36,721 nt of DNA from Comamonadaceae bacterium (lineage in GTDB: Bacteria > Pseudomonadota > Gammaproteobacteria > Burkholderiales > Burkholderiaceae_C): NCBI GenBank assembly GCA_947378785.1, contig CANCLK010000028.1, forward strand, positions 1 through 36,721, in the 5' to 3' direction. Position 1 is the stretch's first letter; each line of letters starts with the position of its first letter. Below are positions 20,825 to 31,538 of this stretch, in pieces. The position numbers were made by a program, and so were the translations under genes. The notes beneath the pieces are model-generated. The model saw only the letters and a list, made by a program, of their open reading frames with translations. It did not search any database and was not told the DNA's origin.

Positions 20825-21295
20825 TTACAGAAACCGATCCAGCAACTTGCGTGAATGCCGATCCATCTGGGCCAAATCGCGAATCAAAAACTGCACGCCA
20901 TGGCTATCTGTGACGAGCAACACCGTGGCCGACAAACGGCGGATGTCTTCCTCGCCCTTGAGCTGCAAGCTGGTGTCGCCGCGATCGGTTTCGATATCCC
21001 ATGTGCAGGGTGCGACCACGCTGCTCACACCACGCAATTTCAAGATACGCGGCATGAACTCGCGCTGGGTCAAGGCGCGCACCACACTGGCACGCAAGGC
21101 AGCAGACAAGTTCTCCAAAGCTGCGATCCACAGCAGCTCATGGCCGTCGACATCGACCAAGGCCACACCTTCATCAGGCGCGGCCACGGGGAAAGCCCGG
21201 ACCGCTGTGACGTGTTCGTGGCGCACGCCTTGACTTGAGACGTAGAACCAGTGGCCGGCCGCGTCACAATCAAATTCAAAATTCAGCGTGGTCAC
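20825..21295 (-). CDS. DUF1854 protein, cyanophycin-metabolism-associated
   Basis: A 156-residue soluble protein of the DUF1854 family. Visible blocks include EGVALVDVDGHELLWI, REFMPRILKLRGVSS, PCTWDIETDRGDTSLQLKGEEDIRRL and VLLVTDSHGVQFLIRDLAQMDRHSRKLLDRFL. It has no signal peptide or membrane segment. In Burkholderiales this family is encoded next to an ABC transporter opposite cyanophycin synthetase genes, exactly as here. It overlaps the ABC transporter gene by 4 nt (21292-21295) and is presumably made with it. The function is unknown; a partner or regulatory subunit of the transporter is an inference from coupling. Confidence 0.82.
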   Translation of the reverse strand: MTTLNFEFDCDAAGHWFYVSSQGVRHEHVTAVRAFPVAAPDEGVALVDVDGHELLWIAALENLSAALRASVVRALTQREFMPRILKLRGVSSVVAPCTWDIETDRGDTSLQLKGEEDIRRLSATVLLVTDSHGVQFLIRDLAQMDRHSRKLLDRFL

Positions 21296-23652
21296 AAAAT
21301 GTCCTTTGCGGTGTGTTGCACAGCCACGGGTACGCTCAAGGGCGCAGCTTCCACAATGGGTAATTCACGCAAAACAGCGCCCTCAGCTTCGGCTTGGCGC
21401 TGCTGCGCTTCATACAAACGCCAGTAAGCGCCTTGCGCAGCAATCAAGTCGTCGTGGGGGCCGACTTCCACAATTTGGCCTTTGTCCATCACCACCAATC
21501 GGTCGGCTTTGCGCAGGGTCGACAAACGGTGAGCAATGGCAATGGTGGTGCGTCCGCGCACCAAATTGTCCAAAGCATTTTGAATTTCTTTTTCGGTTTC
21601 AGTATCGACCGAAGACGTGGCTTCGTCCAAAATCAAAATGCGCGGGTTGATCAACAAGGCTCTGGCGATGGAGATGCGCTGGCGTTCGCCGCCCGACAAA
21701 CCTTGGCCGCGTTCGCCGACCAACGAGTCATAGCCTTGGGGCATGCGCAAAATAAATTCGTGCGCATGGGCAGCGCGCGCCGCCGCCACAACTTCTTGGC
21801 GCGACGCATCGGGTTTACCGTAAGCAATGTTGTCCGCTACCGTGCCAAAGAACAAAAATGGCTCTTGCAACACCAGACCGATATTTCGGCGGTAATCGCT
21901 CACGCCGAATTGACGAATGTCCACCCCATCCAAGGCAATGCTGCCCTCGGAGACATCATAAAAACGACAAATCAAATTCACCAGGGTGCTCTTGCCCGAA
22001 CCGCTGTGTCCGACCAGACCGATCATTTCCCCCGGCGCAATGTCTAGGCTCAATTGGCGAATCACGGCGCGGTTGCCATACCTGAAATCGGCATTCGTTA
22101 ACGTGAGGCGCCCTTGCACCTCAGGCATCGGCAGCGGATTTTTCGGCTCTGGCACGCTGGAAACGTGGTCGAGTATTTCAAAAATCCGCTTGGCGCCAGC
22201 AGCCGCTTTTTGGGTGCTTGAGACGATACGACTCATCGAATCTAGACGTGCATAGAAACGCCCGATGTAAGCCAGAAAAGCCGTCAATACACCGACCGTT
22301 ATTTCATTTTTAGAGACCAACCAGATACCAAAAGCCCAGACCACCAGCAATCCTATTTCGGTCATGAAGGTCACCGTCGGACCGAACAAAGACCAAACCC
22401 GATTCAATCGGTCATTCACAGCGAGGTTGTGCTTGTTAGCCTCGTCAAAACGCTGTGCTTCCCGCTTTTCCTGAGCAAATGCTTTGACCACGCGAATGCC
22501 TGGAATGGTGTCGGCCAGCACATTCGTCACCTCAGACCAGACACGGTCAATTTTTTCAAAACCCATGCGTAAACGCTCACGCACCACATGGATCAACCAG
22601 GCGATGAAGGGCAAGGGCAGCAGCGTGACCAAGGCCAAGCCCGGATTGATGGACAGCAAGATGATCGCCGTCATCAAAATCATCAGCACATCGGTGGCGA
22701 AGTCCAGCAAGTGCAATGATAAAAAGACGTTGATGCGGTCGGTCTCGCTGCCAATGCGGGCGATCAAGTCCCCCGTGCGCCTACCACCAAAATATTCGAG
22801 TGACAACTTCATCAAGTGCTCGTAGGTGGTGGTCCGCAAATCAGCGCCAATGCGCTCAGACACCAAGGACAAGATGTAAGTCTTGATCCAACCCAAACCC
22901 CAAGCCACAAAAGCAGAACCAAACAAGCCAAGCAAATACCAAGACACCGTGACCGGGTCAATTTTCTCGCCATTCTGGTAAGGGATAAGCACCTCGTCCA
23001 TCAAGGGCATCGTCAAGTACGGTGGTACCAAAGTGGCTGCAGTAGCGGCGAGGGTCAAGAGAAACCCCAGTAGCAACTGCCCTTGGTAGGGCCGCGCAAA
23101 ACGCCATAATTTGAACAGAGTCAAGGTTGAGGTGGGACTTCCCTCTTTCTCCGCGCACACCGGGCAGTCGTCCTCGGCGGCGTTTATGGGGCTTTGACAT
23201 ACCGGGCAGATGTCGTCCAGCGAGGCGCCTTGCGCCAAGTTTTCTGGCATTTCCTGTGTGCTGTCCACCAACCTGTTTTGGCGCTGCTCTTCAAACAGCG
23301 TTTTGAAGCGCAACACGGCTGCCAGCCGGCCCAAGGTGAACCGCCAAACCGCCAAACGCCGACCATTGGCCTGCAAAGACAAGGTGCCAACACCCGCGTG
23401 ATCGCTTAATAACAAGGTTTGCAGCGGGTCAAATGGCCAAGAAGGCCAGTTTTTTTGCGCCTCATCGCCAGAGATGACCCGATGATCGGTCAGAATGAGA
23501 AGCGTTTTAACAAAATTTAAATTGTCATCCAAGTCAACTTCCAGCCAAGCTGAAACGTTTTCATCTGGATGAACTTGCAATGCCCCGTGCTCGCGCCAGT
23601 CAAAAGGCAACCCAATAAAATTATTGTTGGGCGGAAGGGCTTTGGGGGTCAT
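21292..23652 (-). CDS. ABC exporter with N-terminal PH-like region and zinc-knuckle, cyanophycin-associated
   Basis: A 786-residue half-transporter. Residues 1-145 form an extra cytoplasmic region resembling a bacterial PH-like fold (LLILTDHRVI, LAVWRFTLGRLAAVLRF). It is followed by two CPVC knuckles (C149/C152 and C163/C166), a likely zinc ribbon. Next come six membrane helices of the type-1 exporter fold (about 190-470) and an ATPase domain: Walker A GHSGSGKST with K554, signature LSGGERQ, Walker B ILILDEATSS, and an H-loop in IAIAHRLST. Most close exporters are lipid, peptide or drug flippases. The substrate here is unknown. It is divergent from the cphA genes across a shared 159-nt promoter region and coupled to DUF1854. 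Confidence 0.85.
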   Translation of the reverse strand: MTPKALPPNNNFIGLPFDWREHGALQVHPDENVSAWLEVDLDDNLNFVKTLLILTDHRVISGDEAQKNWPSWPFDPLQTLLLSDHAGVGTLSLQANGRRLAVWRFTLGRLAAVLRFKTLFEEQRQNRLVDSTQEMPENLAQGASLDDICPVCQSPINAAEDDCPVCAEKEGSPTSTLTLFKLWRFARPYQGQLLLGFLLTLAATAATLVPPYLTMPLMDEVLIPYQNGEKIDPVTVSWYLLGLFGSAFVAWGLGWIKTYILSLVSERIGADLRTTTYEHLMKLSLEYFGGRRTGDLIARIGSETDRINVFLSLHLLDFATDVLMILMTAIILLSINPGLALVTLLPLPFIAWLIHVVRERLRMGFEKIDRVWSEVTNVLADTIPGIRVVKAFAQEKREAQRFDEANKHNLAVNDRLNRVWSLFGPTVTFMTEIGLLVVWAFGIWLVSKNEITVGVLTAFLAYIGRFYARLDSMSRIVSSTQKAAAGAKRIFEILDHVSSVPEPKNPLPMPEVQGRLTLTNADFRYGNRAVIRQLSLDIAPGEMIGLVGHSGSGKSTLVNLICRFYDVSEGSIALDGVDIRQFGVSDYRRNIGLVLQEPFLFFGTVADNIAYGKPDASRQEVVAAARAAHAHEFILRMPQGYDSLVGERGQGLSGGERQRISIARALLINPRILILDEATSSVDTETEKEIQNALDNLVRGRTTIAIAHRLSTLRKADRLVVMDKGQIVEVGPHDDLIAAQGAYWRLYEAQQRQAEAEGAVLRELPIVEAAPLSVPVAVQHTAKDIL

Positions 23653-23811
23653 AAAGGTTCAAGCAACAAGAGTCAACATGTGTTGGCGGCTAAGAAGAAA
23701 AGCGGCCAGGACACAGCTCATGCACCTTGTTTATCGGAAGAATTCTGCACGTGCCGCAATCATCAAGATATTCTATCGCCACTCATCCCTGCGCCCAGCG
23801 TGCTGTCACCC
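23653..23811. promoter_or_regulatory. Bidirectional control region between ABC exporter and cphA2
   Basis: 159 nt separate the divergent starts at 23652 and 23812 and must carry promoters for both cyanophycin-locus arms. The frame of cphA2 can be read back through it and into the ABC gene, but that peptide is not conserved-looking and is taken as non-coding. A TATTCT box at 23769-23774 points towards cphA2 but has no clear -35. No firm operator was recognised. Confidence 0.4.
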
Positions 23812-25989
23812 ATGAGTGCTAAAGACATTCAATTTCTGCGCATCACGCATTTGCGCGGTCCCAATATTTGGACCTATCGCCCCGTCATGGAGGCTTGGAT
23901 CGACATTGGTGCACTAGAAGACTGCCCCTCCAACACCCTGCCCGGCTTCAACCAACGCTTGCAAGCCATGCTGCCGGGCTTGGTCGAACACCGGTGCAGT
24001 GTGGGCGAGCGCGGCGGGTTTTTAAAGCGCTTGGAAGAAGGCACTTGGCCCGGTCACATCATGGAGCATGTGGCGCTGGAGCTGCAAAATCGTGCCGGCA
24101 TGCAGACCGGATTCGGCAAAGCCCGCGAAGCCGGCGTCCGCGGGATCTACAAAGTCGTGATCCGAACCCGGCATGAGGCGGTCAGCCGCGCAGCCTTGCA
24201 AGCCGCGCGCGATTTGGTCATGGCCGCCATCGACGATCGCGACTACCCGGTCGCCCAGACCATTGCCGATTTGACCCAAATGGTTGACACCCTGTGCATT
24301 GGGCCCAGCACCGCCTGCATCGTCAACGCGGCAGCCGAGCGCGGCATACCAGCCATACGCCTGAACGAAGGTAACTTGGTCCAGTTGGGCTACGGTGCCA
24401 ACCAACGCCGCATTTGGACTGCAGAAACAGACAAAACCAGTGCCATTGCTGAAGGCATCTCCAAAGACAAAGACCTGACTAAAAATTTACTCGCCAACTG
24501 CGGCGTACCCGTACCCGAGGGGCGCAACGTGGCGTCGCCCCAAGAAGCTTGGTTGGCAGCGCAAGACATCGGCTTACCCGTTTGCATCAAACCCGTTGAC
24601 GGCAACCACGCCCGTGGCGTGTCACTGGAACTGCACACCCAAGCTGAAGTCGAGGCGGCCTTTCATCTGGCAGAAGCCGAAGGCAGCGAAGTATTAGTCG
24701 AGCGCCATATTTTGGGCGATGAGCACCGCTTGCTGGTGGTCGGCGGCAAAGTCGTCGCCGCAAACAAGGGCGAGGCGGCCTGCATTGTGGGCGATGGCGT
24801 CCACACAGTCCAAGATCTCATCGAAAGCCAGATCAACTCTGATCCTCGACGCGGCGAGGAAGAAGATTTCCCCTTGGACACGATCCGTTTGCACGAGCAC
24901 CCAACCGCCGTGATGGAGCTAAAACGTCAAGGTTTGACGGGCGACAGCATTCCCGTGATGGGGCGCAAAGTGGTGGTCATGCGCACCGGCAACATGGCTG
25001 TGGACGTGACAGACTTGGTACACCCCGACGTTGCCGAACTCGCTGCGTTGGCAGCCCGCATCGTAGGCTTGGACATTGCCGGGGTTGACTTGGTGGCCCA
25101 AGACATTTCCAAGCCGATGAAATCGCAAGGCGCTGCCATTGTGGAAGTCAACGCAGGCCCAGGCCTCTTGATGCACTTGAAACCAGCCTCAGGCCCTGCC
25201 CGCCCAGTGGGAGAAGCCATTGCCAAACACTTGTTTTCAGATGAAAGCAAAGCTCGTATTCCCGTGGTCGGCTTGCTCGGCCATGCAGACACCACCGGCA
25301 CCAGCCACTTGATTGGCTGGCTGCTACACCTGCAAGGACTGCGCACGGGCTTGTCGTCGGCCAAGGGTTTGTTTGTCGGCCAACGCTGCTTACAAGACCA
25401 CGATGGCTTGGCTTGGGAGACCGCCCAACGCTTGCTTGTCAACCGCGCCGTACAAGCTGCGGTGTTCGAAACCACCGCCCGCCAAGTCTTGACCGAGGGC
25501 CTGCCTTACGACCGTTGCCAAGTCGGTGTCGTCACCTCCATGCCGAAGGCCGACGGTTTGCAAGACCTTTATATACAGAGTGACGCGCAAATGCCGAATG
25601 TGGCACGCACGCAAGTCGATGTGGTGCTGCCCGATGGCGTCGCGGTGTTGAATGCAGAGGACGATGCTGTTGTCGCACTGGCAGACTACTGCGATGGTGA
25701 AGTGATGTTCTATGCATCCTCAGAGGACAACCCCCACTTGGCCAAACACCGCGCAGCAGACGGACGTGTGGTGTTTTGGCGCGAAGGTCACTTGATCTTG
25801 GCCCACGGCACACAAGAGACGGATGTGCTCAATCGGAAGTTGCCTGCTATCGACAAATTCTTCCGCGATCAAATTCTCAGATGCAACGAGGTTCTCGCCT
25901 CCGCTGCGGCCGCTTGGGCCTTGGGCGTACCCTTTGATTTGATTCGTGCCGGCACCAAAAGCTTTGGCCAAAGTCCTGCTTCGCACTGA
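23812..25989 (+). CDS. cphA2: Cyanophycin synthetase CphA2-type (Mur-like domain degenerate)
   Basis: A 725-residue relative of cyanophycin synthetase. The N-domain (about 1-160) and the ATP-grasp domain (about 160-485) are intact in outline: AETDKTSAIAEGISKDKDLTK, GLPVCIKPVDGNHARGV, VEVNAGPGLLMHL. In the Mur-ligase-like domain the P-loop is lost: at residues 490-498 it reads GHADTTGTS where the neighbouring CphA has GTNGKTTT. The last Mur lobe, with the DYGHNPDA motif, is missing. In cyanobacteria CphA2 lacks this second activity and polymerises beta-Asp-Arg dipeptides from only the ATP-grasp site. The same is inferred here. The start is set at ATG 23812 (MSAKDIQFLRITHLRGPN), which aligns with the start of the next gene's product. 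cphA follows after 32 nt. Confidence 0.85.
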   Translation: MSAKDIQFLRITHLRGPNIWTYRPVMEAWIDIGALEDCPSNTLPGFNQRLQAMLPGLVEHRCSVGERGGFLKRLEEGTWPGHIMEHVALELQNRAGMQTGFGKAREAGVRGIYKVVIRTRHEAVSRAALQAARDLVMAAIDDRDYPVAQTIADLTQMVDTLCIGPSTACIVNAAAERGIPAIRLNEGNLVQLGYGANQRRIWTAETDKTSAIAEGISKDKDLTKNLLANCGVPVPEGRNVASPQEAWLAAQDIGLPVCIKPVDGNHARGVSLELHTQAEVEAAFHLAEAEGSEVLVERHILGDEHRLLVVGGKVVAANKGEAACIVGDGVHTVQDLIESQINSDPRRGEEEDFPLDTIRLHEHPTAVMELKRQGLTGDSIPVMGRKVVVMRTGNMAVDVTDLVHPDVAELAALAARIVGLDIAGVDLVAQDISKPMKSQGAAIVEVNAGPGLLMHLKPASGPARPVGEAIAKHLFSDESKARIPVVGLLGHADTTGTSHLIGWLLHLQGLRTGLSSAKGLFVGQRCLQDHDGLAWETAQRLLVNRAVQAAVFETTARQVLTEGLPYDRCQVGVVTSMPKADGLQDLYIQSDAQMPNVARTQVDVVLPDGVAVLNAEDDAVVALADYCDGEVMFYASSEDNPHLAKHRAADGRVVFWREGHLILAHGTQETDVLNRKLPAIDKFFRDQILRCNEVLASAAAAWALGVPFDLIRAGTKSFGQSPASH

Positions 25990-26021
25990 CGCACATCCAA
26001 CGCACATCAGGAAACCTGTTC

Positions 26022-28616
26022 ATGGAAGTTTCAAGAATTCGAGCATTGAGGGGGCCCAACTTGTGGAGCCGTCACACCAGCATCGAGGCTATCGTCACCT
26101 GTACACCCGACGAATGCGCCTTGCCCAAGGGCAGTGCTTTCGAAAAAAATGTGCGGCGTATTTTTCCGGCCTTAGGCCTGCTTGAAGGCGCCCACCCTGG
26201 CCAGCCGGCCAGCATGGCCCATGTCCTAGAAAAAATCTCTTTAGATTTACAAGCCCACGCCGGTTGCCCCGTCACCTTCAGCCGCACCACGGCCACCGAA
26301 GAAGCTGGGGTCTATCAGGTTGTTGCGCAATACACCGAAGAAGCCGTTGGTCGTTTGGCCTTTTCTTGGGCTGAAAAATTGTGCCACGCGGCACACAACC
26401 AAGAGCCTTTCGACCTTCACCAAGCTTTGACCGAATTGCGTGACTTGGACGAAGATGTGCGTTTGGGTCCATCGACCGGTGCCATCGTGGATGCTGCGGT
26501 AGCCCGTGGCATTCCTTATCGGCGCCTGACCGAAGGCAGCATGGTTCAGTTTGGCTGGGGTTCGCAACAACGGCGCATTCAAGCAGCCGAAACTGACAGC
26601 ACCAGCGCCATCGCCGAAGCCATAGCCCAAGACAAAGATTTAACCAAAACTTTGCTGTTGGCCGTTGGCGTGCCCGTGCCGATTGGCCGGCCAGCCAAGA
26701 ATCTGGAAGACGCATGGGCGATTGCCCAAAAAATTGGCTTGCCGGTGGTCCTCAAACCGCTGGATGGCAACCAGGGCAAAGGCGTGACGGTCAACATTGT
26801 TGAGCGCAGTGCTTTTGACCAAGCCTATGCCACTGCCGCACACTATGGTGATGTGCTGGTCGAAAAATTTCTGCCTGGCAGTGACTACCGTCTGCTAGTG
26901 GTGGGTAACCAATTGATAGCGGCCGCACGGCGCGAACCGCCGTTGGTAGTGGGTGACGGCGTCTTCAGCGTGCGCGAGTTGGTGGCACAAGTCAACGCTG
27001 ACCCACGCCGGGGCGATGGCCACGCGACATCACTGAGCAAAATCAAGTTTGACGACATCGCCATTGTTTGCCTGAAGTCGCAAGATTTAAACCCCGATGC
27101 CGTGCCCGAAAAAGGCCGCCGCGTGGTGTTGCGCAACAACGCTAACTTATCGACGGGCGGCACAGCAACCGATGTCACGGACGATGTGCACGCCGATGTC
27201 GCTGCGCGCGTGGTGGCTGCAGCCCAAATGGTCGGCGTCGATGTTTGCGGCGTCGATGTCGTTTGCGAGTCGGTGCTGCGCCCATTGGAAGAGCAGAACG
27301 GCGGCGTGGTTGAGGTCAACGCAGCCCCTGGCTTGCGCATGCACATCAGCCCTTCCTTCGGCAAGGGCCGTGCGGTGGGCAAAGCCATCATCGACCAGCT
27401 TTATCCTGACGGCAGTGATGGCCGTATCCCCGTCATTGCTGTGACAGGCACCAATGGCAAAACAACCACCGTGCGATTGACGGCACACTTGCTCAAAGCG
27501 CACATGCTGCGGGTCGGGATGACCAACACCGATGGTGTCTATGTGAATGGCCGTCAAATCGACGATGGCGATTGCAGTGGCCCACGCAGTGCACGCAATG
27601 TACTGATGCACCCGGACGTTGATGCTGCCGTCTTTGAAACAGCACGCGGCGGTTTGCTGCGCGAAGGCTTGGCCTTTGACCGCTGCCAAGTGGCGATCGT
27701 GACCAACCTCGGCTCGGGCGATCACCTCGGCTTGAACTACATCACCACGCTGGAAGATTTGTCGGTCCTCAAGCGCGTGGTGGTCTTGAATGTGGCGCCG
27801 GATGGTATGGCTGTTTTGAACGCCGCCGACCCCGCTGTCGCGATGATGGCCAAACTCTGCCCAGGCCAAGTGACCTTCTTTGCACTGGACCCACACATCT
27901 CTGTTTTGGCCACGCACCGAGCTCAAGGTAAGCGAGTGCTGTACACCGAAAATGGGCAAGTGGTCGCTCAGGAAGGGAAGAAGATTTTCCGCATTCCTTT
28001 GGCTGAAGTTCCACTCACCCGGCAAGGTCAAATCGGCTTTCAAACTGAAAATGTCATGGCCGCAGTGGCTGCGGCTTGGGCCATCAATGTGCCCTGGGAG
28101 ACCATTGCGCTCGGTCTCTCGACCTTCGTCAGCGACATGCAAGGTGTGCCGGGCCGCTTCAACGTGTTTGACTACCGCGGTGCTACCTTGATTGCCGACT
28201 ACGGCCACAACCCAGATGCCATACAAGCCTTGGTCAACGCGGTGGAGAACATGCCTGCCAACAAACGTGTGGTGGTGATCAGCGGCGCTGGCGATCGGCG
28301 TGACCAAGACATTCGTGACCAAACCCAAATTCTGGGTGCTGCCTTTGATGACGTGCTGCTGTATGAAGACGCCTGCCAACGCGGACGCAGCGACGGTGAG
28401 GTTTTGCACCTCTTGCGACAAGGTTTGGACGGAGCCGCGCGGACATCCTATGTGCAAGACATCCAAGGCGAGTTCAACGCCATCGACATCGCCTTGGCTC
28501 GTTTGTCACCGGGCGACTTGTGCCTAATCCTGGTTGACCAAGTTGAAGCTGCGCTGGCCTACATTCAGCAACAGGTGAACGGCAGTCAAAATACACTCGC
28601 CACGTTAAAAGACTGA
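26022..28616 (+). CDS. cphA: Cyanophycin synthetase
   Basis: CphA makes multi-L-arginyl-poly-L-aspartate without a template, adding Asp to the backbone and Arg to its side chain with two ATPs. At 864 residues it has the full three-domain build: N-domain (MEVSRIRALRGPNLWS), ATP-grasp (about 160-470: AETDSTSAIAEAIAQDKDLTK, KPLDGNQGKGV, VVEVNAAPGLRMHI), and an intact Mur-ligase-like domain with P-loop GTNGKTTT (476-483), NLGSGDHLG, and the late DYGHNPDA and ISGAGDRRDQD motifs. The Shine-Dalgarno aggaaa lies about 11 nt before ATG 26022. With the CphA2-type gene directly upstream it forms the tandem pair known in Ralstonia and relatives. No cyanophycinase is nearby. Confidence 0.96.
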   Translation: MEVSRIRALRGPNLWSRHTSIEAIVTCTPDECALPKGSAFEKNVRRIFPALGLLEGAHPGQPASMAHVLEKISLDLQAHAGCPVTFSRTTATEEAGVYQVVAQYTEEAVGRLAFSWAEKLCHAAHNQEPFDLHQALTELRDLDEDVRLGPSTGAIVDAAVARGIPYRRLTEGSMVQFGWGSQQRRIQAAETDSTSAIAEAIAQDKDLTKTLLLAVGVPVPIGRPAKNLEDAWAIAQKIGLPVVLKPLDGNQGKGVTVNIVERSAFDQAYATAAHYGDVLVEKFLPGSDYRLLVVGNQLIAAARREPPLVVGDGVFSVRELVAQVNADPRRGDGHATSLSKIKFDDIAIVCLKSQDLNPDAVPEKGRRVVLRNNANLSTGGTATDVTDDVHADVAARVVAAAQMVGVDVCGVDVVCESVLRPLEEQNGGVVEVNAAPGLRMHISPSFGKGRAVGKAIIDQLYPDGSDGRIPVIAVTGTNGKTTTVRLTAHLLKAHMLRVGMTNTDGVYVNGRQIDDGDCSGPRSARNVLMHPDVDAAVFETARGGLLREGLAFDRCQVAIVTNLGSGDHLGLNYITTLEDLSVLKRVVVLNVAPDGMAVLNAADPAVAMMAKLCPGQVTFFALDPHISVLATHRAQGKRVLYTENGQVVAQEGKKIFRIPLAEVPLTRQGQIGFQTENVMAAVAAAWAINVPWETIALGLSTFVSDMQGVPGRFNVFDYRGATLIADYGHNPDAIQALVNAVENMPANKRVVVISGAGDRRDQDIRDQTQILGAAFDDVLLYEDACQRGRSDGEVLHLLRQGLDGAARTSYVQDIQGEFNAIDIALARLSPGDLCLILVDQVEAALAYIQQQVNGSQNTLATLKD

Positions 28617-28627
28617 CGCCGGCCTAG

Positions 28628-29719
28628 ATGACTGCTTTGCCGGTGGCACGTTACCCGTTGATTGACGTGCTGAAAGCCTTGGCTGCGCAGTTCATCGTCC
28701 TGCACCACTTTTCAGTTTACGGCCCGGTGTCCGAGGCGCTGCATGCGGCCTTGCCAAGGGTGATGGGCTTGCTGTATGAGTATGGACTCATCGCCGTGCA
28801 GGTTTTTTTTGTAGTCGGTGGTTATCTGGCGGCAAGAGTCTTGTCATCCTCCACGGCCGCTTGGCACACGCCACGCATCGCAATTTTCAAACGCTATGTT
28901 CGTTTGCTGGTGCCCTATTTATTCGCCCTGATTGTCGTTATGTTGTGCACCGCTTGGGTTCAACCTTGGTTGACGGAAGATCTGGCTGCGCCCGCCCCTG
29001 GCTGGGGGCAATGGTTGGCGCATGTGGCCATGCTGCAAAGCATCTTGGGGATTGAGTCCTTGGCTGCCGGTGCCTGGTACGTGGCCATGGATTTCCAATT
29101 GTTCGCATTGCTGACGCTTCTGCTGTGGTTGTTCGGGGGCGGCAACACCCGGCGTGCGCAAACCGTGATCGCGGTGCTCTGCGTGGCCTCACTAATGGTG
29201 TTCAACCGCCAAGCTGAATTTGACGCCTGGGCGGTGTATTTTTTCGGGGCTTATGGACTCGGTGCGCTGGCGTGGTGGTCGCGTCGTTCCAGCCTGACCG
29301 ATGGACCTCCCGCCTCGCCCTTGTATGCCCGTGTCATGTTCGTCTTGACAGTCGTCTGCGGGCTGGTGGCCTTGGCGATAGATTTCAGAGAACGTATCGC
29401 CTTGGCCATGGGGGTTGCCCTCGCGTTGGTGTACTGGGGAACGGCTTCACAGCTGTTGGCTCATTGCGCCAAGGCTCAAACCAATATGGAGACTTTGGGC
29501 AAGCAATCTTATGCCTTGTTTTTAATGCATTTCCCGGTGTTGTTGCTCACCAATGCGGCCTTCACGCGTTTTGGTTTCACACCGGAAACCAGCTCTGCGA
29601 CCACCGCCTTAGGCTGGGGTATTGCCGGATGGGCAGCCAGCCTATGGGCTGCTAATCTCTTCTACCGCTGGATAGAATCCCCTGCAGCAGCGTGGCGTGG
29701 TGCTTTAAGGCCACGCTGA
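28628..29719 (+). CDS. Acyltransferase-3 family membrane protein
   Basis: A 363-residue integral membrane protein of the OafA/YrhL-like acyltransferase-3 family. The N-terminal YPLIDVLKALAAQFIVLHHF (9-28) contains the family's conserved His pair H26/H27 at the end of the first helix. AVQVFFVVGGYLAARVL is the F-F-x-x-S/G-G-Y-L block of helix 2. About ten hydrophobic segments follow, and the late SYALFLMHFPVLLL is the usual helix-9 motif. These enzymes move acetyl or other acyl groups across the membrane to sugars, lipids or peptides. It follows cphA by only 11 nt, so it belongs to the cyanophycin transcription unit. The acceptor is unknown. Confidence 0.85.
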   Translation: MTALPVARYPLIDVLKALAAQFIVLHHFSVYGPVSEALHAALPRVMGLLYEYGLIAVQVFFVVGGYLAARVLSSSTAAWHTPRIAIFKRYVRLLVPYLFALIVVMLCTAWVQPWLTEDLAAPAPGWGQWLAHVAMLQSILGIESLAAGAWYVAMDFQLFALLTLLLWLFGGGNTRRAQTVIAVLCVASLMVFNRQAEFDAWAVYFFGAYGLGALAWWSRRSSLTDGPPASPLYARVMFVLTVVCGLVALAIDFRERIALAMGVALALVYWGTASQLLAHCAKAQTNMETLGKQSYALFLMHFPVLLLTNAAFTRFGFTPETSSATTALGWGIAGWAASLWAANLFYRWIESPAAAWRGALRPR

Positions 29720-29767
29720 AACAGACAATTAGCGTTAACCCGTTTTTATTTCGCTTCATCACTGACC

Positions 29768-30922
29768 ATGACAGCTCTCACCTCGCCTATGACGCCCCTC
29801 CAGAACAGCCAGGGCATCGTGATTCAAAACGTGAATCAGCGCGATGCAGAGTCGACACAAAAAACCGTTCAGGATGTGCTGGAAATTCTGGGTTTGGCAG
29901 AAGATGTGGACTTCTCCGGCGGTACGTCTACCGCGAAAAATCTGCAATGGGTTTTGAAAAAAGAACGCATGGCAACTTGGATGCCAGACCTGAATACCTT
30001 TGATCTGTGTGAGCGTGTGGGCTTGCAAAGTCGCACCCTTACCGCTGATTTAGTTCGCGAAATTTGGATCACCATGCTGGCCAGCCCGATGGCTTGGGCC
30101 TTCCCCAGTGCAGAAGAGCTGATCTCCGCCGTTCGGATGCGCCAGTTCATTGTGCAAGCCGCCCGCAAAACCGCCCTGGACTTTCACACCAGTGAAGCCG
30201 AACGTCCGAGCGACTGCTGGACTTATCGCGAAGACACCGGCTTCACCGTACTACCCGACTCGCCGCTGATTCAGGCACTCATCAAGGCCACTCAGCCAGA
30301 TGTCAGCGGCGTGGTTTACGCCTTTTCGTGTTACCGCGCGACGGAATACATCTTGTTGTTGGCGATTGCACAAGAAGCCCAGATCAGCAACCCGGCTTTA
30401 TTGGCTGGCTTACAAAAACAATGGGAGACACGGGCGGTCATGTCAGGGCGGTTTCACGAGGTATTTTTGCGAGAAACCGGCAGCATTGAAACGCCTTTGC
30501 CAATCAGTTATTACATCCCCGGGGACCGAGTATGGTTTCGCAACCCAGATGACGCCTCGTCAGACGTCGCCGGCTTTGAGGGCTCTTGGGTTTTCTACTT
30601 GGGCGGCGGCCAGTTCTCCAATTTTTGGCAACGCAACAAACCCTTCACGCTCGCGTCCAAATGCGTCGACGTCTATGAATGGCGCAACGGCACCAGACGA
30701 GATGCCAGCGGAGAACTGCAGATGGACGAAGAACTGGTTGCGCAGCTGGTGGACAAAACCATGACCCGGCCTGCCGAGGTTGAACGCATCACACAGCGCA
30801 TGTTTCGCCTGCGCGACCCGCAAGGCGTTTACGCGCAAGGTGGCTGCATGGACACCTCCCGTGAATCACCGCGCTGGGTGCGGCCTGACACCACAGACAT
30901 TGTTCTGCCAGGCATGTACTGA
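29768..30922 (+). CDS. Hypothetical protein with Tgl (spore-coat transglutaminase)-like blocks
   Basis: A 384-residue soluble protein with no signal peptide. Four blocks occur in the same order as in Bacillus Tgl: R-x2-IV-x-AA-x-K (125-134), YAFSC (184-188; Tgl YAFEC with the nucleophile C116), GDRVWFRNP (252-260; Tgl GDCLYFKNP) and G-x2-V-x2-LG (272-279; Tgl GENVILLG). C188 is therefore the likely nucleophile. The Tgl residues E115, E187 and H200 are not conserved at the aligned positions, so activity may be altered. The N-terminal 100 and C-terminal 90 residues have no Tgl counterpart. It lies 48 nt after the acyltransferase gene, as the last gene of the cyanophycin arm. An ATG seven codons inside is a possible start. 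The assignment rests on alignment from memory and needs a profile search. Confidence 0.55.
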   Translation: MTALTSPMTPLQNSQGIVIQNVNQRDAESTQKTVQDVLEILGLAEDVDFSGGTSTAKNLQWVLKKERMATWMPDLNTFDLCERVGLQSRTLTADLVREIWITMLASPMAWAFPSAEELISAVRMRQFIVQAARKTALDFHTSEAERPSDCWTYREDTGFTVLPDSPLIQALIKATQPDVSGVVYAFSCYRATEYILLLAIAQEAQISNPALLAGLQKQWETRAVMSGRFHEVFLRETGSIETPLPISYYIPGDRVWFRNPDDASSDVAGFEGSWVFYLGGGQFSNFWQRNKPFTLASKCVDVYEWRNGTRRDASGELQMDEELVAQLVDKTMTRPAEVERITQRMFRLRDPQGVYAQGGCMDTSRESPRWVRPDTTDIVLPGMY

Positions 30923-30939
30923 ACGGGCAAGACCCGTTC
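30921..30939. terminator. Short hairpin between convergent Tgl-like and DUF3501 genes
   Basis: A 7-bp stem gaacggg/cccgttc with loop caaga begins within the stop codon of the Tgl-like gene and fills the 25-nt gap to the DUF3501 stop. No T-run follows on either strand, so it is at best a weak terminator or mRNA 3'-end protector. Confidence 0.35.
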
Positions 30940-30947
30940 CAGCAGGA

Positions 30948-31538
30948 TTAACGCAGATCGCTGACCAGCGAGGCCAGAGCCTCTGGCGCCACCGTCGTGT
31001 GTGCCGGGTAGTTGGTGTGGTCGCAACCCACTTTGACGCTGGCACCGGCTTTGACAGCGGCGCACATGGCGGGCGTGAGTTCAAAGCGCACGAAGTGAAC
31101 GGCTGAAGTTTTTTCGTCATTCTCCCGGTCCATGTCTTCGTCGGCAATCGCGTAGACGCGGGGATGACCTTCGACTTCCACAAAGGTGCGATCTTCGACC
31201 CCGATCAAGCGGGCCAGCTCACGCTTGCGCTCGTTCACATCAGGGTACTCGATGAGCATGGTGGCTTTCCAGTTGCTGCCGTCTGGCATCAAGGGCGCGT
31301 AGGCGTCTATTTCTTGCTTAATGCCCTCTTCTTCGAATATTTTCTCGATCCGCAGCATCTCCTGGATTTGGTAGCGGATGCTGGTTTCGCTTTCAAATTG
31401 CAGGTTGATGTGCTCGCCCAGACGCACGCTGCGGAGTTGACGGTGCGCCATCACGTCAGCCTTGTGCTCTTTGCGAAATTTACTGTAAGCCTCTAATGTC
31501 ATGAGACTGTCGCGTGTGATTTTTCCAGTGACTTGCAT
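30948..31538 (-). CDS. DUF3501 family protein
   Basis: A 196-residue soluble protein of the DUF3501 family. Recognisable are ITRDSLMTLEAYSKFRKEHKAD, RSVRLGEHINLQFESETSIRYQIQEMLRIEKIFEEEGI, and the late HFVRFELTPAMCAAVKAGA and GCDHTNYPAH. The function is unknown. The family is regularly encoded after a rubrerythrin and a GlpC-like Fe-S oxidoreductase, as here, suggesting one oxidative-stress or redox module. The start is set at ATG 31538 behind aaggaaac. A longer frame to 31895 overlaps the neighbouring gene and is not protein-like. Confidence 0.86.
   Translation of the reverse strand: MQVTGKITRDSLMTLEAYSKFRKEHKADVMAHRQLRSVRLGEHINLQFESETSIRYQIQEMLRIEKIFEEEGIKQEIDAYAPLMPDGSNWKATMLIEYPDVNERKRELARLIGVEDRTFVEVEGHPRVYAIADEDMDRENDEKTSAVHFVRFELTPAMCAAVKAGASVKVGCDHTNYPAHTTVAPEALASLVSDLR

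Follow-up and report, generated by a model that had tools for sequence, protein, structure and literature searches.

A Tgl-fold cysteine protein with an altered active site and its association with the cyanophycin genes of Betaproteobacteria

The window, i.e., the whole stretch of 36,721 nucleotides that was analysed, carries a set of genes for cyanophycin synthesis and, in line with them, the gene of a protein related to the transglutaminase Tgl of Bacillus (hereafter, the TGL protein). The genus of the window is Polaromonas-like, and Polaromonas and Comamonadaceae MAGs are the nearest among the best 80 of 420 relatives of this protein. On the forward strand, four genes follow one another with gaps of 32, 11 and 48 bases and encode, in this order, a second CphA-like protein of 730 residues (23797..25989), the cyanophycin synthetase CphA (864 residues, 26022..28616), a membrane acyltransferase (28628..29719, Acyl_transf_3, PF01757, in Pfam) and the TGL protein (29768..30922), in such a way that the acyltransferase gene is placed between cphA and the TGL gene. 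CphA scores 1216 bits against NF010623 (cut-off 877) and 954.9 bits against TIGR02068, also above the cut-off, and the CphA-like protein reaches 981.8 bits against the former and 699.7 bits against the latter, where the cut-off is 850. The open frame of the CphA-like protein begins at 23569, its 730 residues being counted from the Met at 23797, and no Mur ligase domain is found in it with Pfam. A partner of this kind lies 5' of the full CphA in 20 of the 21 cphA-linked loci from named-species genomes, where both are visible, and some of the CphA-like matches in genomes of the genus contain one internal TGA. Divergently from this row, the reverse strand encodes a cyanophycin metabolism-associated ABC transporter (21292..23652; NF052233, 1374 bits, cut-off 880) and a cyanophycin metabolism-associated DUF1854 family protein (20825..21295; NF052234, 209 bits, cut-off 150). 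Beyond the 3' end of the TGL gene, the minus strand bears genes for a DUF3501 protein and an iron-sulphur protein (identified by eye), which are outside the cph set.

Based on its spacing, the row from cphA to TGL is predicted to be likely transcribed as a single unit. A scan of positions 23400-31200 for promoters and terminators, which reports consensus matches only, returned no sigma-70 site (3.1 are expected in shuffled sequences) and 18 terminator-like sites, compared with 9.9 in the shuffles, one of them at 29632-29653 of the forward strand, within the 3' end of the acyltransferase gene. The earlier note on this DNA had placed the TGL gene at the end of a cyanophycin synthesis operon, a description that is backed by the co-directional cph genes and their short gaps, but weakened by the terminator-like site that precedes TGL.

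The TGL protein has 384 residues, from an ATG at 29768 to a stop that ends at 30922, and consists of an N-terminal stretch of about 90 residues followed by a match to the Pfam family PF20085 (TGL) over residues 92-355 that scores 102.7 bits (gathering cut-off 23.7, E 2.4e-29), this being its sole Pfam family at E <= 1. When its sequence is compared with those of solved structures, only 7c9j, the Tgl of Geobacillus, is retrieved (E 1.5e-6), and a profile made of 28 sequences reaches both 7c9j (E 1.5e-11) and the B. subtilis Tgl 4p8i (E 2.2e-4). An AlphaFold2 model, built on a 51-sequence alignment, has a mean pLDDT of 89.1 and a pTM of 0.91, and a Foldseek search with it against 350,542 PDB chains gave two matches at E <= 0.001, again 4p8i and 7c9j, with E 1.3e-7 and probability 1.00. 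The assignment of the open reading frame at 29768-30922 to a Tgl-like protein, proposed from the letters of the sequence, is therefore borne out by the PF20085 score, the matches to 7c9j and 4p8i and the structural comparison with the Tgl fold, which at that threshold finds exclusively Tgl. The likeness to the enzymes of Bacillus and Geobacillus comprises the Pfam family, the fold, an aligned catalytic Cys and PGD motif, and a strand that can be aligned past the site of the catalytic Glu. Nevertheless, the TGL protein differs from them in its length of 384 residues, with the extra N-terminal stretch, and in its hosts, which are cphA-bearing Betaproteobacteria, and it scores just 28 bits against the NCBIfam Tgl equivalog NF002869, below the cut-off of 307 bits. 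In NCBIfam it matches two families at E <= 1, neither of which is a cyanophycinase (the profile TIGR02069 is not matched), and, unlike the ABC transporter and the DUF1854 protein, it bears no cyanophycin-associated name there. From the look of its start, inspected by eye, which does not resemble a signal peptide, we infer that the protein would be cytosolic.

In the Tgl of B. subtilis, the nucleophile is C116, its partner is E187, replaceable by E115, and H200 is required for activity, the mutants E115A and H200A having no detectable activity according to the available text of PMC6490927. In the sequence and profile alignments, C116 corresponds to C188 of the TGL protein (codon at 30329..30331, forward strand), located in an FSCYRA motif, whereas E115 corresponds to S187 and E187 to S273. 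By counting positions along the aligned strand, H200 would fall on F286, a placement that relies on what we take to be the Bacillus motif around H200. Thus, the earlier note was right in putting C188, which is invariant in 51 aligned rows, at the position of the Tgl nucleophile and in regarding E115 and E187 as replaced, as the printed alignments show; the replacement of H200, which it had also announced, agrees with this strand count. Are these replacements the trace of a protein that has lost its chemistry? S187, C188, E271, S273 and F286 are all invariant in both the 28- and the 51-sequence alignments, and since the replacing residues are themselves invariant, the replacements do not resemble decay. 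Together with its FSCYRA-x-EY motif, the invariant E271 (codon at 30578..30580, forward strand) is a further trait that sets the TGL protein apart from Tgl, and it lies two residues ahead of the E187 site, now S273. In the AlphaFold model, C188 opens the helix formed by residues 188-207 and E271 is found immediately before the strand 272-279, where it may be oriented like S273, since residues two apart share a strand face. PF20085 has been grouped with the NlpC/P60-like papain-fold amidases in the available part of PMC10318531, and the TGL protein has in common with them a papain-like fold, a GD motif on a strand and the Cys at the start of a helix; it differs from them in having S273 at the site of the Tgl catalytic Glu and the invariant Glu two residues earlier, and the comparison would extend, by inference, to their classical His position.

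The sequence variation among homologues is informative about which residues could make up the working site. C188, the GD motif, E271 and the EGS motif are present in 51 of 51 rows, in which several families are represented, and among 47 main-type homologues both C188 and E271 are found in 45. The only two main-type homologues without C188, L098 (with Ser, from genome G328) and L102 (with Pro, from genome G254), have also lost E271 and S273; they belong to one genus, so that this may be a single event, and cphA is retained in both genomes. These two proteins are possibly non-catalytic relics. The loss of E271 together with C188 resembles the decay of a working pair. By contrast, H230, considered as an essential catalytic His, was rejected, as it is near-invariant in the main subfamily but gives way to Arg or Gln in two proteins where C188 and E271 are both retained, and to Glu in all 8 rows of a second subfamily (see below). 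Due to this invariance, to the joint loss in L098 and L102, to the variation at H230 and to the retention of both residues in the second subfamily, we propose that C188 is paired with E271 as its acidic partner, two residues ahead of the Tgl site. These same data bear on the possibility of a catalytically dead or purely structural protein, to which the replacement of three Tgl active-site residues and the existence of L098 and L102, also devoid of C188, would point; however, the constancy of these motifs in all 51 rows, their retention in 8 of 8 members of the second subfamily and the fact that the proteins without C188 have lost E271 too make it an improbable explanation.

That second, divergent subfamily of PF20085, which could not be seen from the window alone by the earlier note, comprises L036, L037, L038, L100, L101, L103, L104 and L107, besides L099, which is a shorter piece. 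Most of its members have hydrophobic N-termini that, by eye, look like signal peptides, and the subfamily is thus apparently exported. In an alignment of 10 main and 8 second-subfamily proteins, the residues common to both are C188, G252, D253, E271, G272 and S273, conserved in 8 of 8 second-subfamily rows, whereas H230, E193 and E236 are missing from those 8 rows. In addition, six genomes (G050, G460, G486, G543, G567 and G588) show a weak match restricted to the C-terminal half, as happens in the second subfamily, and all six possess cphA.

The link between the TGL protein and cyanophycin rests less on the locus of the window than on genome surveys. The survey of the order covered 399 genomes from 51 families, in which TGL was called from a match above 200 bits (32 genomes) and cphA from E < 1e-100, a threshold of our own choice. 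Of these 32 TGL genomes, 31 possess cphA, which is present in 147 of the 399 overall, and hence TGL is almost confined to cphA genomes in the sampled order. Nine further genomes with weak TGL matches only, which include the six just named and were left out of the 32, are all cphA-positive, and in G052, where there is no TGL match, CphA barely missed the threshold (E 7e-95). In the only exception, G576, one TGL piece runs into a contig end at residue 236, and a second contig opens with an overlapping TGL piece, with a stop right after it (L283 and L284 are both loci of this genome); the first 6 kb of that second contig gave no other TGL match with tblastn, and G576 probably holds a broken copy in a genome devoid of cphA. 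Could this co-occurrence reflect shared ancestry, genome size or chance, with no functional link at all? Phylogeny does inflate unstratified counts, but the association survives stratification by family in an exact test (p = 8.9e-7), in which relatedness within families remains. For instance, cphA and TGL are found in the same 3 of the 11 genomes of family f44, where the genome sizes of those with cphA (2.4-3.2 Mb) and those without it (2.7-3.7 Mb) overlap, and in family f4 TGL is present in 5 of 6 genomes with cphA and in 0 of 6 without it.

Narrower samples give the same picture with less independence. Within the genus (87 genomes), CphA (E < 1e-100) is present in 66 genomes and TGL in 45, all 45 of them with cphA, while TGL is absent from the 21 genomes without it (Fisher 7e-9). 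This figure carries little weight, because the genomes without cphA fall into approximately three clades, and therefore represent few independent events, on an rpoB tree that includes 14 of the 21; that tree was built with 60 of the 87 genomes, and neither the genome of the window nor most of those with linkage had a usable rpoB. At the family level (299 genomes), 37 of the 39 genomes with PF20085 have CphA, compared with 185 of 299 overall, and the two exceptions, G160 and G268, contain weak, divergent PF20085 matches. Among the named-species genomes described below, 42 of the 44 tested have CphA (E < 1e-180), both exceptions (L149 and L188) being MAGs; the other 36 of the 80 comprise 21 with cphA inside the locus and 15 of Polaromonas type that were left out of the test. 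Even though the pattern in the genus rests on approximately three clades, the stratified test, the overlapping genome sizes and the recurrence of the linkage in differing arrangements make the lack of any functional link very improbable, and we consider with good confidence that TGL is associated with cyanophycin. Nonetheless, TGL is absent from 116 of the 147 cphA genomes of the order, which means that it is unnecessary for cyanophycin metabolism in general.

A scan of named-species genomes yielded 420 relatives of the TGL protein, the best 80 of which were taken with flanks of up to 9 kb, shorter at contig ends. In these 80 loci, cphA is found in the flank in 21 and in none of the flanks of the other 59, an acyltransferase in 21, a DUF1854 gene in 18 and an ABC transporter in 19 (the latter counted when accompanied by CphA or DUF1854). 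The homologues are hence mostly away from cphA, an outcome that the earlier note had named as a refutation; its proposal of a link with cyanophycin nonetheless stands on other grounds, namely the nesting of TGL within cphA genomes and the recurrent linkage. When linked, TGL is found at either end of the cph module and in either orientation, with at least five arrangements. The order cphA-cphA-acyltransferase-TGL is shared by 10 loci (L114-L123) of Polaromonas/Comamonadaceae and related MAGs; in a Sulfuricellaceae MAG (L130), and in L285, whose contig has an identical length and layout, TGL directly follows cphA-cphA; in G747 (L286) it is convergent to the cphA end; in 7 loci, from Thiobacillus and others, it comes after ABC-DUF1854 and is co-directional with them; in L132, L148, L287 and L288, from Allopusillimonas, a second Alcaligenaceae and two other genomes of the order, it is convergent to the DUF1854 end; and in the short contig L165 a cphA piece and TGL are accompanied, in the opposite direction, by an acyltransferase and DUF1854. 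In the sample of the order, the distance between TGL and cphA is about 6 kb or less in 6 of 31 genomes (G000, G545, G685, G747, G763 and G767), when approximately 0.3 would be expected with uniform placement, a rough model that gives this count a chance of about 3e-7, and in the genus they are about 1.5 kb apart or closer in 10 of 45 TGL genomes. A first search for relatives and a neighbourhood clustering had suggested that the link to cphA was limited to the close kin of the window, which was overturned by the named-species scan and the order survey.

Some other features of these neighbourhoods are worth recording. Genes for alanyl-tRNA synthetase, a redoxin, an aminotransferase, a PhzF-like protein, DsbD and a creatininase, identified by annotating representatives, were set aside as lineage-local context. 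In 5 loci, TGL adjoins on the opposite strand the gene of an unrelated Transglut_core (PF01841) protein, annotated in a representative (L032:7295-8500, minus strand). Betaproteobacterial-type cph modules also appear in MAGs that bear the improbable names of Rhizobium (L171) and Verrucomicrobiaceae (L165), probably as misbinned contigs, and two TGL frames contain one internal stop: L178:9001-10110, with cphA in the locus, and G582:C1:3261459-3262568, in a genome with cphA. The tree of the TGL proteins was made with 114 sequences, leaving out duplicates, short pieces and matches below 140 bits.

The composition of the linked loci raises another question: does TGL act on the polymer or on the module that accompanies it? 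The ABC transporter (NF052233) and the DUF1854 protein (NF052234) are, like TGL, accessory genes of the betaproteobacterial cph module, although TGL differs from them by its known enzymatic fold and by its presence in only a minority of the genomes with cphA. TGL could serve the module by processing or modifying the ABC transporter, the DUF1854 protein or the transported cargo, together with the acyltransferase, whose company to TGL was not mentioned in the earlier note. The ABC transporter (19 of 80) and DUF1854 (18 of 80) are within the module at linked loci, in Thiobacillus and Alcaligenaceae TGL adjoins DUF1854 and not cphA, and of the 21 loci with an acyltransferase near TGL, 11 have cphA and 10 lack it (L128, L129, L159, L163, L169, L175, L181, L184, L190 and L193), the acyltransferase being on either side. 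However, most TGL genes are separate from the whole module, as 59 of 80 have no cphA in the flank, and this role is, in our view, unlikely. No paper was found in the literature searched with the term DUF1854 or with the NCBI name.

On the whole, the TGL protein probably acts on cyanophycin. The reading that we favour, tentatively and short of calling it probable, is that of a cytosolic, Tgl-fold cysteine acyl-transfer enzyme of the betaproteobacterial cyanophycin module, with the polymer or the granule as its substrate and hydrolysis as the favoured outcome. In this mechanism, C188, activated by E271 in place of the E187/E115 of Tgl, would attack a side-chain amide, for which the beta-aspartyl amide that bears arginine would be the nearest analogue, within the polymer, of the glutamine gamma-amide used by Tgl. 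The acyl-enzyme could then be resolved by water, resulting in the release of arginine or trimming, or, alternatively, by an amine, leading to exchange or to a cross-link. Net hydrolysis, by which cyanophycin would be mobilised or remodelled, appears more likely than cross-linking. A true transglutaminase-type cross-linker, joining lysine-bearing chains to one another or to granule proteins, or swapping arginine for amines, would have in its favour the fold and nucleophile shared with a proven cross-linker, Tgl (whose chemistry is described in the accessible text of PMC6490927), and the description of cyanophycin whose side chains contain some lysine (PMC5178258, in the part available and citing others). 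Nevertheless, the E115 and H200 needed in Tgl, according to that same text of PMC6490927, are here an invariant Ser and Phe, and no candidate granule protein is apparent among the recurrent neighbours in the representatives annotated, which leaves this alternative with a low probability.

If the favoured hydrolysis takes place, TGL would be related to the question of how cyanophycin is broken down in Betaproteobacteria. No cyanophycinase gene was detected in the betaproteobacterial genomes available up to August 2016, and an alternative pathway was inferred (PMC5178258); later, cyanophycinase was reported in 2.8% of 903 betaproteobacterial genomes with CphA1, and isoaspartyl dipeptidases in 70.9% of them (PMC10206079), both as given in the available parts of these sources. 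With TIGR02069 above its cut-off as the indicator, cyanophycinase is absent from all 87 genomes of the genus. The same profile was applied to 80 of the 147 cphA genomes of the order (the 31 with TGL and 49 without it, the latter hand-chosen across families), and it passed its cut-off in 2 of 31 TGL-positive and 9 of 49 TGL-negative genomes, a difference that is not significant (p = 0.19) and shows no complementary pattern between TGL and cyanophycinase; in this hand-chosen set, with 11 of 80, cyanophycinase is commoner than in the published 2.8%. One of the TGL genomes, G480, has CphA matches at C1:5343264 and C1:3388974 and a cyanophycinase at C1:5338624, about 4 kb from the first of them. 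A cyanophycinase-like reading is opposed chiefly by the absence of TGL from most cphA genomes and by this lack of complementarity, and since most cphA genomes are devoid of TGL, it would be a candidate for part, and not all, of the betaproteobacterial cyanophycinase gap. Cyanophycinases, the intracellular form of which is CphB, are enzymes of Ser-type fold and are unrelated to TGL. TGL is proposed to act on the polymer that they degrade, and the cytosolic and the apparently exported TGL subfamilies would parallel CphB and CphE, the latter being extracellular (PMC3235067, in the part available). In its most specific form, the proposal is that a papain-like Tgl-fold enzyme, with its glutamate shifted by two residues to E271, cuts the beta-aspartyl isopeptide bond and constitutes, along with its apparently exported sister subfamily, a second, non-homologous degrading set, which is a doubtful possibility for the time being.

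In agreement with the earlier note, which knew of no described link between this family and cyanophycin, our literature search retrieved no published connection of TGL or transglutaminase with the polymer, including the available parts of PMC7522526 and PMC11915815, its scope being open papers, with subscription papers mostly and bioRxiv preprints wholly outside it. What is new here is the altered active site and the association with the pathway, as the fold and the family were already known. The breakdown of cyanophycin in Betaproteobacteria is a published open question (PMC5178258 and PMC10206079, in their available parts), for which TGL provides an assayable candidate, either for part of the breakdown gap or for a modification of the polymer, that would extend the chemistry of the Tgl fold. 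Should TGL prove to cleave or cross-link cyanophycin, it could also be used to produce an altered polymer; and if the cleavage of the isopeptide bond is true, TGL and its apparently exported sister subfamily would fill part of the betaproteobacterial cyanophycinase gap.
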